Shown in pieces: positions 35,891-41,560 of a stretch of 64,000 nucleotides of DNA. Both the position numbers and the translations under genes were made by a program. This DNA comes from an uncultured bacterium (GTDB taxonomy: Bacteria > Cyanobacteriota > Vampirovibrionia > Gastranaerophilales > Gastranaerophilaceae). The stretch is taken from assembly GCA_949290355.1 (NCBI GenBank), contig CASERN010000011.1, positions 1 through 64,000 on the forward strand, in the 5' to 3' direction. Position 1 is the stretch's first letter, and the number at the start of each line of letters is the position of its first letter. The notes beneath the pieces were generated by a model, which searched no databases, had not been told where the DNA came from, and was given only the letters and a program-made list of their open reading frames with translations.

Positions 35891-37144
35891 ATGTCAAAAA
35901 GAAGAGTAGTTATCACAGGACTTGGTGCAGTATCACCTTTCGGTGTAGGTGTTGATAAATTTTGGAATAGTCTTGTTGAAGGTAAAAGCGGTATTAGTAC
36001 TTCAGAACTAATTGATATAAGCAAGCATGTTGTAAAAATTTCAGGAGAATGCAAGAACTTTAATCCTGAAGATTATCTAGATCCAAAAGAAGCTAAAAAA
36101 ATGGATAGATATATTCAATTTGCTGTGATTGCAGCTGATGAAGCAATTAAAGATGCAAAACTTTCTGAAGTTACTGATGTAGATCCATATAAAATTGGTG
36201 TAATCGTTTCTTCTGCTGCTGGCGGATTTAGAACTTTTGAAGAAAACCATGTTAGAATTCTTGAAAAAGGACCAAATAAATGTTCTCCGTTTACTATTCC
36301 TATGATGATTGTGAATATGGCATCAGGCAGAATTTCTATGAAGTATGGTTTTAAAGGTTTAAATAAAGTTGTTGTTTCTGCTTGTGCAACCGGTACGCAT
36401 TCAGTTGGTGATGCATTTAGAGCTATTCAATATGGCGATGCTGATATTATGGTTGCTGGTGGTGCAGAGGCTACAATTTGTGATGTTGGTATTGGAGCTT
36501 TCTCTAGTGCTAGAACTTTATCTAAACGCAACGATGAACCTAAAAAAGCTTCTCGTCCTTGGGATGTTGACAGAGATGGTTTTGTAATGAGTGAGGGTGC
36601 AGGAGTTCTTATTTTAGAAGAATATGAACATGCCAAAAAACGTGGTGCAAAGATTTACGGTGAAATCGTTGGGTATGGTCAAACAGCTGATGCATATGAC
36701 GTTGTTGCTCCAGATCCGGAAGGTCAAGGTGCAACCCATTCTATGCAATTTGCTTTGGAAGATGCTGGATTAAAACCTGAAGATGTTGATTATATCAATG
36801 CCCATGGGACAAGTACTGGATTAGGTGATATCGCTGAATCTAAAGCCATTGAAGGCTTGTTTGGCGATAAGGAAACTAACAAAAAACTTTTAGTAAGTTC
36901 TACAAAATCAATGCATGGACACCTTTTAGGTGCTACAGGTGCTGTTGAATGTATAGCTTGCGTGAAAATAATAAATGAAAAAATAGTTCCGCCGACTATA
37001 AATCTTGATAACCAAGATGAGCGTGTTGCGAATTTGGATTATGTACCTCACAAAGCAAGAAAAGCCGACATAAAGGTTGCATTGTCTAATTCGTTTGGTT
37101 TTGGCGGTCAAAATGCTTCTATCATTATAAAAGAAGTAAAATAA
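35891..37144 (+). CDS. fabF: Beta-ketoacyl-ACP synthase II
   Basis: FabF elongates acyl-ACP by condensing it with malonyl-ACP. The 417-residue enzyme has the G-L-G-A-V-S-P-F start, the catalytic Cys165 in V-S-A-C-A-T-G-T, and the two His in N-A-H-G-T-S-T and S-M-H-G-H-L-L-G-A-T-G, ending with S-F-G-F-G-G-Q-N-A. It is preceded by a hairpin and an AAAGAG site. fabZ and fabI (or fabK) are not in this window, so the cycle must be completed elsewhere. Confidence 0.97.
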   Translation: MSKRRVVITGLGAVSPFGVGVDKFWNSLVEGKSGISTSELIDISKHVVKISGECKNFNPEDYLDPKEAKKMDRYIQFAVIAADEAIKDAKLSEVTDVDPYKIGVIVSSAAGGFRTFEENHVRILEKGPNKCSPFTIPMMIVNMASGRISMKYGFKGLNKVVVSACATGTHSVGDAFRAIQYGDADIMVAGGAEATICDVGIGAFSSARTLSKRNDEPKKASRPWDVDRDGFVMSEGAGVLILEEYEHAKKRGAKIYGEIVGYGQTADAYDVVAPDPEGQGATHSMQFALEDAGLKPEDVDYINAHGTSTGLGDIAESKAIEGLFGDKETNKKLLVSSTKSMHGHLLGATGAVECIACVKIINEKIVPPTINLDNQDERVANLDYVPHKARKADIKVALSNSFGFGGQNASIIIKEVK

Positions 37145-37170: not shown

Positions 37171-37205
37171 AAAAAATCTCCTTTAATATTAAAGGAGATT
37201 TTTTT
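37171..37205. terminator. Bidirectional terminator, fabF and the helicase gene
   Basis: Perfect palindrome AATCTCCTTTAAT/ATTAAAGGAGATT (37175-37200) with A-run on the left and T-run on the right, between two convergent genes. Confidence 0.92.
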
Positions 37206-37215
37206 ATGTTAATTT

Positions 37216-40200
37216 TTAATTTTCAATTAATACTCTATCCAGGCAGGCTTTTGGAGAATATTGCCATTCTCTGAAAGTTATTCGTTTTACTTTGTATCCT
37301 GAACGTTCAATTATTGCTTGCTTTTTCATATTAGAAATATGCGATTTAATTTTATCCTCGAGTCCATCAATTTCAATTACAAATTTGTCATCTACAAATA
37401 AATCTGCACTCAGACCTGCAATATCTGTGCCGGCAACAACTTTGTGCCCTAATTCTCTTATTTTGTCTGCAATTTCTTTTTCGAGAGAATTTTTGTAGAT
37501 ATTTTCATCTATATCTCCTGAAAGCATAGCTTGTTTTCTATCTTGGTATAATTGTATATATGATATGTAGTTTCTAAAATGGCCTTCAGGTAATTCTCTT
37601 GGATTTCGAGAGACAAAGTTAATTACTTTATTTCTGGCTCTTGTAATTGCGACATTAAATAGATTTGGTTTTTGTAAGAATATTAAGCTTTGGTTAAAGC
37701 TGTTATCCGCAATAGCCCATGAGATAAGCATAATATCTCTTTCATCTCCTTGGAATGTATGAGCTGTACCAATTTCTATTTGGTGTTTTTTTATCATGTA
37801 ATCAGAAAGAACTTTTGAGACAGAAACTTTTAGTTGTTCCACTTGTGCACGGAAAGGGGAGATTATACCTACCGATACAGGGTTTTCAGGATTTTGTCTT
37901 TCATCTTCTATAATGATTTCATGTAAGCGTTTTACCAATGCTTCAATTTCGGGTAAATTCCTTGTGGCATCAAAATCTACTTTCCCATCTAATACTTCAA
38001 CAAGTTCAATAACTTTTTCATCTGTTTTATCTTTTCTCATTATGCGAATTCTGTCGTTATAAAATTCGTGATTTGAGAAGTTAATAATTGGCGGGAGACT
38101 TCTAAAATGTTCATCCAGCATAACTGAATTCATTGAATAGTAATCAGCCAGATCAAACATTGAATTTGTTCTGAAGCGCCACATAAGTTGGTATTTATCA
38201 GGAATCCCGTATTGACTTAAGAAAGATTGTTCTTTTGCTTTTTCCAAGAATGAAAGATGTGGTAGTTGTTTGTCATCTCCCACAATCACAGCACGTTTTG
38301 CACGGAAAAGAATTGGGAAACAGCTTGCAATATCGCATTGTGAAGCTTCATCAATAATTGCAACATCAAACAGACCAGGTTTTAAAGGCAATGAATCTGA
38401 TACTGCATAAGTTGTTACGCACCAGCATGGAAAAGCTTCTAAAAGAGGTTTGAAATCTTCTTCTTCAAGAATGTTAGTTTGTAGTCGTTTTCTATTTGTT
38501 ACAAGAGATTTGGCATGTACTTTTAATCTTCTGCGTTTGTTTTCATCTCTTAGCAGTTCTTTTAGTGCTTCTCTTCTTTTGTTTTTAAGAATATTTATTG
38601 CAAGAGTTTTTTGTTTACGTTTCATTGTGCGGATCTGTTCTGAGAGCATATGAAGATTACCTGTTTTTTGGATATCTGCTTCAATTTTTCTCAAAGACCA
38701 TTCCATATTTGCAAAATCAAGTTCTTGTTTTAATTTACCTAAGTTTTCATATGTTACGTCAAAATCTTTAAGGTTAAGAATTTTTTTCAATTGTCCAAGG
38801 CTTGTAAAATTAGCAATTTTTGATATGAAGCTTGCTTTTTCCATATTATGTTCAAGAATTTTTATTATTCCTGCAATAATATCAATTTCACCTTTTTTAA
38901 GTGATTTTTTTATAAATTCTTTTTTACCTAATATTTTTTCTTGTTCTTCTACTTCTTGTAATTTATCATGCCAATTTTTTTCAAGCTTGATAATTGTTTC
39001 GGATTTATTTTCCATATTTTTTAACAAGTCAAGATGATCTTTCATATCTTTTGTGTCAACGAGAAGGATATCTTCGACTCCTTGATCAAGGTCGTTATTT
39101 TGTGATAGAAGATTATTTAATTCTTCGCTTAATTGTCTTTGATAATTTAAACGACCTGCTCTTAGTGCCATATGACTTGCACCAAGTTCGTTTAATCTGT
39201 CTGCTACAACATCAACAGCTTTATCCATACGAGATGCTACAAGGACAGTTTTTCCATTTGCCACTAAGTGTGCTACAAGGTTTACTATTGTTTGGGATTT
39301 CCCTGTGCCAGGAGGACCTTGGACTGCTATAAATTTATTATTTTCAATATTTTTTATAACTTGGAATTGACTGTCGCTTAATGATAGTGGAGTAATTGGA
39401 TAGAACTCGGTAATTTTATTCATATCCTTTATTGGGACAGATTTTTCTTTGCTTTGGGTATATTCTTCATTAATTATGCTTAATGCGGTTTCTCTATATA
39501 TACCTGAAGGTTTTTCTGCTATTTGTGTTAATTCATGTAATACTCCTGCTGTAACTGATGGACGTTTTGTTAGAATTATTGCACTTTGATATGTTACAGC
39601 GATTTTTTCAAGTTTAACTTTTTGTTTTTCTTGCTCTGTTTCTTCTTCAATAAGTTCGTCTAAATTTTCACCGTCAATTTTTTCTTTATAAAAATCTTTT
39701 GATTTAGAAACGTTATCATCTTCTTTGTAGTCCCCTATATTTTCGGCAATTTCAATTTCTGGAACAAGAGATTTTAGAGTTGTTAAAAATATATCAAGTT
39801 TTTCTTTTGTAATTGGAAGATCCGGTACAACATCCAAAATTCCTTCAAGAAGGAGATCTACCTCATCTTCATCATCATTTTTCCGCATAAGAGCAGCGAG
39901 TGCTCCTGTATTTAAGGATAAAACTTCATCAAGAGGCAAACAGTTTATATTCACGCCGTTACGCTCGAGTTTGCATGGCATGTATAAAAGCGGAGTTAAA
40001 AATTCATTTTGTCTTTTTGATTTTGAACTTTTCCCAACTAAGAATAAATAGCCGTAAATTAAGTATTTATCTTTTTGTCCTAAATCGCTTTGAATCATTA
40101 ATTCCGTCAATTTTGGATCACTACCTTCAAGAGAAATATATTCTGTATCAGTAGAAAATAGTTGTTCTTCACCTTTTAAGAAAATCCATTTGTTGTCTTT

Positions 40201-40332
40201 ATCCCCTTTTAGGTTTCTAAAAGTTGAGCTTTTAACTTCTTCTCGTACGCAATCATGAAGATATTGACTTAATTTTTTTATAAAACTGTTATTAAATGCT
40301 GAATTTATTGCGCGTGAAGCTTCCTGTAGCAT
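37216..40332 (-). CDS. SF1 helicase-like ATPase fused to a restriction-endonuclease-like domain
   Basis: This 1038-residue protein is an UPF1/DNA2-group SF1 helicase: Walker A V-Q-G-P-P-G-T-G-K-S-Q-T near residue 342, then a long coiled insertion (about 420-620), Walker B I-I-D-E-A-S-Q-C-D near 658, V-G-D-D-K-Q-L-P, and the second RecA domain with T-A-H-T-F-Q-G-D-E-R-D and V-A-I-T-R-A-R-N-K. The last 90 residues (GHKVVAGTDIAG, L-F-V-D-D-K-F-V-I-E-I-D-G, S-G-Y-K-V-K-R-I) have the D..E-x-D/K layout of a Vsr/DUF559-type nuclease fold. The same architecture occurs in several phage-defence and DNA-processing genes; the role here is unknown. AAGGAGA precedes the ATG. Confidence 0.85.
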   Translation of the reverse strand: MLQEASRAINSAFNNSFIKKLSQYLHDCVREEVKSSTFRNLKGDKDNKWIFLKGEEQLFSTDTEYISLEGSDPKLTELMIQSDLGQKDKYLIYGYLFLVGKSSKSKRQNEFLTPLLYMPCKLERNGVNINCLPLDEVLSLNTGALAALMRKNDDEDEVDLLLEGILDVVPDLPITKEKLDIFLTTLKSLVPEIEIAENIGDYKEDDNVSKSKDFYKEKIDGENLDELIEEETEQEKQKVKLEKIAVTYQSAIILTKRPSVTAGVLHELTQIAEKPSGIYRETALSIINEEYTQSKEKSVPIKDMNKITEFYPITPLSLSDSQFQVIKNIENNKFIAVQGPPGTGKSQTIVNLVAHLVANGKTVLVASRMDKAVDVVADRLNELGASHMALRAGRLNYQRQLSEELNNLLSQNNDLDQGVEDILLVDTKDMKDHLDLLKNMENKSETIIKLEKNWHDKLQEVEEQEKILGKKEFIKKSLKKGEIDIIAGIIKILEHNMEKASFISKIANFTSLGQLKKILNLKDFDVTYENLGKLKQELDFANMEWSLRKIEADIQKTGNLHMLSEQIRTMKRKQKTLAINILKNKRREALKELLRDENKRRRLKVHAKSLVTNRKRLQTNILEEEDFKPLLEAFPCWCVTTYAVSDSLPLKPGLFDVAIIDEASQCDIASCFPILFRAKRAVIVGDDKQLPHLSFLEKAKEQSFLSQYGIPDKYQLMWRFRTNSMFDLADYYSMNSVMLDEHFRSLPPIINFSNHEFYNDRIRIMRKDKTDEKVIELVEVLDGKVDFDATRNLPEIEALVKRLHEIIIEDERQNPENPVSVGIISPFRAQVEQLKVSVSKVLSDYMIKKHQIEIGTAHTFQGDERDIMLISWAIADNSFNQSLIFLQKPNLFNVAITRARNKVINFVSRNPRELPEGHFRNYISYIQLYQDRKQAMLSGDIDENIYKNSLEKEIADKIRELGHKVVAGTDIAGLSADLFVDDKFVIEIDGLEDKIKSHISNMKKQAIIERSGYKVKRITFREWQYSPKACLDRVLIEN

Positions 40333-40474
40333 GTGTTCTCCTTATTATAGATTTTCAGAGGGCAAGATGGCAGGCTGGTTTCATAAATGATTAATTAGCT
40401 TGAACTCATGACCTCTTTTAGTCCGGTCTTCTATTACCTTGTTTATTTATACATTTTACGCTAAAATGCTTGAT

Positions 40475-41560
40475 ATGGACATCATCAATATAAAGGATAA
40501 TTCAAATAAATTATTTTATATCGGCGGGGTTGTACGAGATGAAATTTTAGGGAAAAAATCGTTCGATATTGATATTACTTATGTGGGTAATGCAATAGAG
40601 TATTGTTCTAAATTTGGTGAAGTTATTCAAGAAAATCCTGATTTTGGCACGGTAAGAGTTAATGTTGATGGTAAGGAAGTTGATTTTGCATCCACAAGGT
40701 CTGAAAGTTATCCTAAAAAGGGACATTTACCTGTTGTTGAAAAAATTGGATGTTCTTTGAAAGAGGATGTGTTACGAAGAGATTTTACAATAAATGCTCT
40801 TGCAAAATCTGTTACAACAGGTGAAATTGTTGATTATACAGGTGGGCTTGATGATTTAAGAAATAAGAAACTTAAAGTATTACATGATGAAAGTTTTATC
40901 GATGATCCGACAAGAATTATTCGAGGACTTAAATTTTCAATCCGTTTTGGTTTTGAATTGGATGAACATACAAAAAAGCTTCAGGAAAATTATTTAGCGG
41001 ATATAAATTATGATATGAGTTATAAAAGGGTAAAAAAAGAACTTGTTGAAACTTTTAATTTGAATTCTCAACTCGCATTTGAAAAGTTTATTAACGAAAA
41101 GATTTATAAGCTTGTAACTCCATTTGATGTTAGTCTTCCAAATATTAATATAGAAAAGCTTATAAACTGTTATGGAGCAGAATATGTGTGGCTTGTATAT
41201 ATAGGAGTTCTAGGAGATTTATCTCATTTGCCTTTGACAAAGGTTGAACAAAAAATTCTTGATGATGTACCGATTAATGTTTTGAAAACAGATTTTGATC
41301 TTTACAAAGCTTTTGAAAATACAAGAATTGAGTCAGTTTTACTCTATGCTATTTTAAAAGATGAAAAAGGTGCAAGAAAGTACCTAGATAAATTGTGTAA
41401 AATAAAAATTTCAGTAACCGGTACTGATCTACAAAATCTTGGGATCAAGCCATCTCCAAAATACAGTTTGATTTTTGATGAGATTCTAAAATTAAAACTT
41501 GAAAAGCCTCAATTGACTTATGACCAAGAAATTGAGTTTATAAGGCATTCATTTTTTTAA
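40475..41560 (+). CDS. tRNA nucleotidyltransferase / poly(A) polymerase family protein
   Basis: This protein of about 361 residues has the class II nucleotidyltransferase head: I-G-G-V-V-R-D-E-I-L-G, the metal-binding F-D-I-D-I-T, K-E-V-D-F-A-S, the R-R-D-F-T-I-N-A-L motif and the basic D-D-P-T-R-I-I-R-G-L-K-F helix. It could be the CCA-adding enzyme (both tRNA genes here lack encoded CCA) or an A-adding partner. The C-terminal half is divergent. Start sites are uncertain: TTG 40439, ATG 40466 and ATG 40475; TAAAAT at 40462-40467 ends 7 nt before the last, which fits the leaderless pattern seen elsewhere. Its 3' end overlaps the opposite gene by 23 bp. Confidence 0.85.
   Translation: MDIINIKDNSNKLFYIGGVVRDEILGKKSFDIDITYVGNAIEYCSKFGEVIQENPDFGTVRVNVDGKEVDFASTRSESYPKKGHLPVVEKIGCSLKEDVLRRDFTINALAKSVTTGEIVDYTGGLDDLRNKKLKVLHDESFIDDPTRIIRGLKFSIRFGFELDEHTKKLQENYLADINYDMSYKRVKKELVETFNLNSQLAFEKFINEKIYKLVTPFDVSLPNINIEKLINCYGAEYVWLVYIGVLGDLSHLPLTKVEQKILDDVPINVLKTDFDLYKAFENTRIESVLLYAILKDEKGARKYLDKLCKIKISVTGTDLQNLGIKPSPKYSLIFDEILKLKLEKPQLTYDQEIEFIRHSFF

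Follow-up and report, generated by a model that had tools for sequence, protein, structure and literature searches.

A UPF1-like helicase with a Vsr-like nuclease domain in the Gastranaerophilales: probable housekeeping member of a defence-associated family

The locus described here raises the question of whether a helicase fused to a nuclease is an immune enzyme or part of the ordinary nucleic-acid machinery of the cell. The gene lies on the minus strand of a stretch of 64,000 nucleotides, hereafter the window, from an uncultured bacterium of the Gastranaerophilaceae, order Gastranaerophilales (contig CASERN010000011.1 of assembly GCA_949290355.1). An initial annotation of the window had proposed either a single-gene defence system or a repair enzyme. 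As the gene is core, follows the families and changes slowly, the defence half of that proposal now appears less likely, and the repair half, taken broadly as a housekeeping nucleic-acid enzyme, the better one. The interpretation that we favour, and consider fairly probable, is that the gene has become fixed, is inherited vertically and serves a housekeeping role, most of its family, UPF1-like helicases with Vsr-type nucleases, being accessory and defence-associated. Among the papers listed by searches of an open-access library, none dealt with this helicase-nuclease gene in Gastranaerophilales.

Architecture of the protein

The gene and the parts of its product are as follows.

37216..40332, minus strand: helicase-nuclease gene, an open reading frame of 1038 residues with an ATG start; orthologue-strength matches in 188/192 genomes of the order
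39403..40332, minus strand: stalk helices and 1B-type strand region, residues 1-310 (AlphaFold2 model, of moderate confidence here; UPF1/IGHMBP2 alignments; conservation)
37528..39390, minus strand: two RecA-like domains of a superfamily 1B (SF1B) helicase, residues 315-935 (AAA_11, AAA_12; Foldseek and VIA matches to SETX, UPF1, IGHMBP2 and SEN1)
39289..39321, minus strand: Walker A/motif I, QGPPGTGKSQT, residues 338-348 (K345 and T348 invariant in 120/120)
38500..39054, minus strand: long helical insertion between Walker A and motif II, residues 427-611 (AlphaFold2 model)
38338..38352, minus strand: motif II, DEASQ, residues 661-665 (D661 and E662 invariant in 120/120)
38263..38280, minus strand: motif III, GDDKQL, residues 685-690 (D686 and Q689 invariant in 120/120)
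37735..37761, minus strand: motif V, HTFQGDERD, residues 858-866 (G862 and D863 invariant in 120/120)
37633..37656, minus strand: motif VI, NVAITRAR, residues 893-900 (R898 invariant in 120/120)
37225..37497, minus strand: Vsr/MTES_1575-like PD-(D/E)xK domain, residues 946-1036, with E951, D977, E987, D989 and K1004 (Pfam, conservation, fold)

The protein is a UPF1/IGHMBP2-like SF1B helicase followed by a C-terminal Vsr-like nuclease. Pfam AAA_11 matched residues 318-691 (E 1.2e-25) and AAA_12 residues 724-904 (E 2.9e-22). All SF1 motifs were present, as the initial annotation had stated, and ten residues across motifs I to VI showed no variation in a set of 120 distinct orthologues, obtained from 149 sequences by removal of repeats. 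The full-length AlphaFold2 model had a predicted local distance difference test score (pLDDT) of 79.1 and a predicted template modelling score of 0.70. VIA aligned it with IGHMBP2 (Z 24.1, root-mean-square deviation 4.3, 440 residues), UPF1 (Z 23.7, deviation 3.9, 449 residues), SETX (Z 21.1) and Dna2 (Z 19.0). Because the IGHMBP2 and UPF1 alignments, which extend to residues 931-932, start at residue 15 or 16, the N-terminal part is predicted to include a UPF1-type stalk and 1B region, the model being less sure there; this part also holds a variable linker at about residues 201-250. The long insertion between Walker A and B, likewise noticed at the outset, was modelled as long helices over residues 427-611 (about 185 residues, pLDDT 81-93 by block) and is the least conserved part of the helicase. 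UPF1, IGHMBP2, SEN1 and Dna2 thus share the fold over residues 15-932 (VIA Z 19-24), whereas they lack the C-terminal Vsr-like nuclease. The nuclease of Dna2 is N-terminal and RecB-like, and the RecB-like nuclease profile PF12705 had no match in the window protein at E<=1.

The C-terminal domain was matched by PF18741 (MTES_1575) over residues 951-1035, at 34.0 bits in the whole protein, below the cut-off of 38.2, and at 38.8 bits, over it, when the last 109 residues were scanned alone. The same profile matched 35/35 aligned orthologues at E<=0.001 (best 1.4e-19). Modelled alone, the domain had a pLDDT of 84.9 and was aligned by VIA with the catalytic domain of I-Bth0305I (Z 11.1), NGO0050 (Z 11.0) and Vsr (Z 8.5); plain Foldseek found nothing for it at E<=0.001 (best 1.5e-3). 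The profile and the VIA matches bear out the Vsr/DUF559-like, PD-(D/E)XK-like end first read from the sequence. In the available text of PMC3710099, MTES_1575 is described as a novel restriction endonuclease of the Vsr family, whose host protein also carries HEPN, transglutaminase and SF1 helicase domains.

Distribution, descent and selection

Presence was scored as a match at E<=1e-10 in samples that overlap, scoring being confined to the five or six best candidate sites of each genome. The gene was found in 30/33 genomes of the genus (27/27 good ones), 188/191 of the family (159/160 good ones) and 188/192 of the order (179/182 good ones, 45/45 genera), so the distribution, which might have been patchy, is not. 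The matching genomes of the order had a best E of 4.3e-70 or better. Families of the order other than that of the window genome matched in 21/22 genomes; some of these loci run off the end of a contig, and full-length proteins were recovered from 17. The host assembly (1.85 Mb, 99.96% complete) holds a single copy. A partial second copy was seen in another genome (G006:C10:43054-44892; residues 426-1038, 95% identical; contamination 3%), possibly a fragment of another strain and not a duplication.

Outside the order the picture was different. The class sample contained 38/117 genomes from the order, all matching with at least 1659 bits; its 79 genomes from other orders gave no full-length match, 32 having partial ones only, of at most 96 bits and mostly in frames of 1400-1700 residues. 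Among 84 genomes of the phylum sample outside the order, six matched at E<=1e-20, every one partially. Partial matches were also obtained in 987 plasmid records, none covering 80% of the query, in nine phages and with two PHROG families, and 14 loci on viral contigs were 24-31% identical. Carriage by phages or plasmids was set aside on these grounds. In the genomes searched, the core gene is restricted to one order, the Gastranaerophilales. Other phyla may hold a full-length orthologue, the scan of genome contigs having covered the best 80 of 300 confirmed stretches, ranked by similarity.

Descent was examined on a tree whose 52 rows comprised 45 orthologues and seven accessory relatives; it was built by a quick method with no bootstrap, leaving out L103 and L112, from the same genomes as L162 and L154, and also L079 and L099 to keep it short. 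Each family with several rows (f1, that of the window genome, and f2, f3, f4, f6 and f7) formed one side of a branch, f4 at 94, and placing all groups on the tree took seven changes, the minimum. Descent is vertical, following families. The accessory proteins sit on long branches that make their placement unreliable, and we claim no origin from it.

Rates of change were obtained as medians over pairs of the window with close relatives only (25 loci). The helicase-nuclease gene (n=23) had a nonsynonymous rate (dN) of 0.050, an identity of 93.2% and a ratio to the synonymous rate (dN/dS) of 0.030, which is flattered by a dS of about 1.8, near saturation, against 0.95 for fabG. By dN and identity it falls between fabG (dN 0.035, dN/dS 0.033, 95.5%) and fabF (0.060, 0.052, 92.3%). 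The other genes were fabD (dN 0.104, dN/dS 0.115, 84.6%), an MBL-fold gene (0.126, 0.060, 81.2%), a metallophosphoesterase gene (0.134, 0.066, 79.3%), a CCA-type gene (0.150, 0.107, 75.4%) and two TPR genes (dN/dS 0.106 and 0.182). Within the protein, dN/dS was 0.021-0.030 for the RecA parts and 0.052 for the nuclease. The gene is under purifying selection.

The nuclease triad and the proposed function

We take the D...E-x-D residues to be the catalytic acidic residues of the MTES_1575/Vsr-like domain. The corresponding triad D977-E987-D989 reads D-E-D in the window protein and in 109/120 distinct orthologues and is changed in 11. It is retained in 102/103 proteins of f1, a label that for loci from genome contigs rests on 72-95% identity and not on taxonomy, and in 2/2 of f2, 1/1 of f5 and 3/3 of f6. 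In f3 none of six proteins retains it (SEA twice, SEI, KEA, DEV and DEN), four of them having lost two of the three acidic residues; it is retained in 0/2 proteins of f4 (DEC, DEN) and 1/3 of f7 (the other two SED). Where a single triad residue is changed, as in f4, f7 and two of the f3 proteins, activity may survive. Since E987, R1010 and W1023 are invariant across the orthologues despite these changes, the fold of the domain is probably kept in proteins with an altered triad.

We propose that a defence-type helicase-nuclease became fixed in the ancestor of the Gastranaerophilales and would now act as a housekeeping nucleic-acid translocase; the defence-type ancestry is suggested by the relatives and not by the tree. 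ATP hydrolysis would drive the protein along a single strand of nucleic acid, presumably 5'-to-3' as in UPF1, IGHMBP2 and SEN1. Beyond this ATP-driven movement along a strand, the proposed mechanism is read from the fold. The motor might strip or unwind structured RNA, RNA:DNA hybrids or DNA intermediates, both RNA and DNA being considered as substrates, and the C-terminal domain might nick the strand in f1 or merely hold it in f3, the selected function residing mainly in the motor. We prefer a housekeeping translocase because the gene is core, vertical and slowly changing, and because its motor is invariant while one family has let the triad go.

Several points weigh against this interpretation. 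No partner or substrate was found, and three of 182 good genomes of the order have no match, so the gene is perhaps not strictly essential. In f1, selection probably acts on cutting, because the triad is kept in nearly all of its distinct proteins, and a loss of nuclease activity in f3 is predicted from the residues. The nearly saturated dS flatters the rate comparison, most role-named relatives in the prokaryotic libraries are defence proteins, and a fixed defence role is possible. As grounds for doubting a defence role, the initial annotation had named universal conservation in the order, the same neighbours throughout and the absence of a nuclease active site. The first nearly holds and the second holds only among close relatives; an active site is present in f1 (102/103 with D-E-D) and wholly or partly absent in f3 (0/6).

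A more specific scenario would have an anti-phage helicase-nuclease domesticated once in the ancestor of the order as a UPF1-like nucleic-acid surveillance factor, its nuclease losing catalysis in one family after another and turning into a RAP-like domain that grips RNA, behind an invariant motor. The UPF1/IGHMBP2 fold hints at RNA. So do VIA alignments of the C-terminal domain with the module of FASTKD4 that bears a RAP domain (Z 7.9) and with Toxoplasma gondii mitoribosomal chains (Z 10.3 and 9.5), which are presumably RAP proteins, and so does the domain of the orthologue L154, just over the Pfam RAP cut-off (24.6 vs 24.2). Against it, every one of ten domains tested scored higher for MTES_1575 than for the RAP profile, on which L155 was just under the cut-off and the window domain reached 13.0 bits. 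With one domain of ten over the cut-off, the RAP reading of the C-terminus was rejected, and we rate the scenario as a whole as rather doubtful.

Defence relatives, DNA repair and genomic surroundings

Fixed chromosomal immunity is the main rival to a housekeeping role. Under it, the gene would encode a single-gene nuclease against phages or plasmids, retained by the order, whose helicase picks out nucleic acid that is foreign or being replicated for cleavage by the Vsr-like domain. The PADLOC profiles PDC-S37, MkoC, MkoA and Hhe match the window protein partially, and they match 35/35 aligned orthologues. NCBIfam models for ProA, PLuB, the IGHMBP2 family (TIGR00376, 126 bits) and Hhe also match partially, all far under their cut-offs, so that the best prokaryotic library families are mostly defence ones (PDC-S37, MkoA/C, Hhe, ProA, PLuB), TIGR00376 not being one. 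Accessory relatives occur in defence settings, beside BREX on an Acinetobacter plasmid and beside McrC in G224 and G080, two genomes of the order. The available text of PMC10250203 reports a large DUF4011 gene in every Pseudomonas aeruginosa isolate, flanking the defence hotspot cDHS1, which indicates that the wider family has core members, and the intact triad of f1 would suit an immune nuclease. On the other hand, the distribution is not patchy and gives no sign of transfer between families, no defence neighbour is conserved, the rates of change are near those of fabF and fabG, and six of six f3 proteins persist with an altered triad. We therefore regard fixed immunity as unlikely, if less so than the other alternatives.

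The closest described architecture is CnuH of type III-B CoCoNuTs, which the available text of PMC11090510 presents as a UPF1-like SF1 helicase with a large helical insertion after Walker A, an OB/stalk region and a fused Vsr-like nuclease. The helicase, the insertion, the stalk region and the fused nuclease are all found in the window protein, a likeness by description and not by sequence comparison. By the same text, III-B CnuH also carries an N-terminal winged helix-turn-helix domain and CoCoNuTs have McrB-type CnuB and McrC-type CnuC partners, whereas the neighbours of the window gene are fabF and a CCA-type gene. McrC (PF10117) was absent from the window genome (G000) and present in 10/60 order genomes; McrB was not searched for.

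PDC-S37, Hhe and ProA, of the DUF4011 type, share an SF1 helicase with an insertion and a C-terminal MTES_1575 domain, with a partial profile match over residues 438-1035, but their profiles are several hundred residues longer and DUF4011 had no Pfam match in the window protein. PDC-S37 gave 170.6 bits (best stretch 438-1035), compared with 1346.9 for a full match with DUF4011 at L150, in the same order, and ProA (NF058533) gave 165.6 bits against a curated cut-off of 1500. The P. aeruginosa cDHS1 gene, as described in the source text, is similarly fixed, in its case in one bacterial species, and encodes a large member of the wider family; unlike the window gene it carries DUF4011 and lies at the edge of a defence hotspot, and it was likened by description, not sequence. 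In Mokosh, a kinase or phospholipase-D domain accompanies the helicase. No such Pfam match was found in the window protein at E<=1, and the best MkoA and MkoC stretches lie within residues 406-906.

Accessory paralogues of about 1012 residues at L150 and L163, from two genomes of one genus in our samples, have the same domain order (34-35% identical along part of the sequence; 49.4 bits for MTES_1575 in that of L150), but they keep a DG..H motif that is absent from the core family.

Some accessory loci were recorded for their own sake. At L150:4415-12978 (G103) the 1012-residue paralogue lies near a full PDC-S37/DUF4011 protein of 1439 residues, which has a weak N-terminal zinc-ribbon match. 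On the Acinetobacter plasmid NZ_CP093969.1 (L166:1-7540), BREX pglZ and brxL have immediately downstream of them a 1579-residue relative with an MTES_1575 nuclease, whose existing annotation says no more than AAA domain protein. At L177:2007-10571 (G224) and L176:5969-9866 (G080), McrC (415 residues) stands beside an 860-residue UPF1-like helicase with a C-terminal DUF2726, and a 975-residue AAA_5 protein of G224 has a weak, sub-cut-off EVE match; this cassette may be a CoCoNuT-like or EVE-McrBC island. An odd fusion occurs on the Microvirga plasmid NZ_CP016617.1 (L167:2741-7696), where the nuclease of a 1651-residue relative is followed by a C-terminal domain of GreA/GreB (31.9 bits in Pfam against a cut-off of 26.9).

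One particular form of the housekeeping interpretation is DNA-end processing or recombination repair, by a Dna2/AddAB-like resection helicase-nuclease replacing AddAB or RecBCD. The AddAB question was tested by PF12705 in place of AddA and AddB models. In 12/12 genomes of the order this profile found a nuclease of 205-236 residues, and only four also had one of about 1000 residues, while PF12705 proteins of about 1000-1290 residues were usual in families f8, f9, f10, f13 and f14; the Dna2 match (Z 19) points the same way. A clean replacement is contradicted by f12, which lacks a PF12705 match in 8/11 genomes and also lacks the helicase-nuclease. Moreover, G000 retains a 645-residue UvrD-like helicase with an adjacent RecB/Cas4-like nuclease, two of the order proteins of about 1000 residues begin like UvrD helicases when inspected by eye, and the triad decay in f3 fits resection poorly. 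RecD2, absent from 12/12 order genomes and also from 43/48 others (5/60 class genomes have it), was uninformative. The scarcity of long PF12705 proteins is suggestive, but with f12 mostly lacking both and G000 having its UvrD and RecB-like pair, replacement of AddAB was not adopted and is kept as a rival that we find improbable. The genes of the G000 pair (C7; L175:2284-4843) overlap, the nuclease having 209 residues, and the helicase with its short PF12705 nuclease is possibly a compact, split AddAB-like pair.

The immediate surroundings of the gene are as follows.

35891..37144, plus strand: fabF, convergent neighbour (Pfam ketoacyl-synt, N and C domains)
37171..37204, no strand assigned: palindromic terminator-like hairpin between fabF and the helicase-nuclease gene (consensus match)
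40338..40343, minus strand: Shine-Dalgarno-like AAGGAG, 5 bases 5' of the helicase-nuclease ATG (sequence)
40439..41560, plus strand: CCA-type tRNA nucleotidyltransferase gene, head-to-head neighbour (Pfam PolyA_pol head domain; linkage mainly among close relatives)

The gene does stand alone beyond the fatty-acid cluster, as first noted, 71 bp from the convergent fabF with the hairpin between them. This hairpin is a perfect AT-rich palindrome of 15 pairs, one of three such sites in the region, compared with 1.9 in shuffles, and is possibly a shared bidirectional terminator of the two genes. The head-to-head gene on the far side, which the initial annotation had not mentioned, is putatively of the CCA type, to judge from its Pfam domain.

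This pair suggested that a CCA-adding enzyme might be a partner in tRNA repair or surveillance. Of the 80 closest loci, 73 have the CCA-type gene in divergent orientation within 800 bp upstream, a count biased by similarity because these loci are the best of 300 so ranked; the seven without it include L086, with just 796 bases upstream. The fabF of the window was found in 39 of the 80, convergent downstream in 35 and upstream in four. The linkage was lost in a diverse set of 31 loci, from 19 genera of f1 and 12 from other families, covering about 4 kb on each side and less in some. The pair was immediate in only two (L142, L148), about 2 kb off in L144 and on the opposite side in L135, and the CCA-type gene was found in none of the 12 loci from other families over that range. 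We thus dismissed the partnership, which seems very unlikely. When neighbours were clustered in 41 loci (the window, the 31 diverse ones and nine of the 80 closest), no cluster besides the gene itself and the CCA-type gene (11/41) occurred in more than four. No neighbour is conserved across families.

Helicase-nuclease fusions of this kind are easily taken for phage defence, and here one is inherited vertically and present in nearly every genome sampled from an entire order. It calls for caution in profile-based defence calling, as 35/35 aligned orthologues match several defence profiles, and it offers a test case of how immune enzymes become housekeeping ones. If the RNA reading were true, the protein would be a bacterial UPF1-like core factor.

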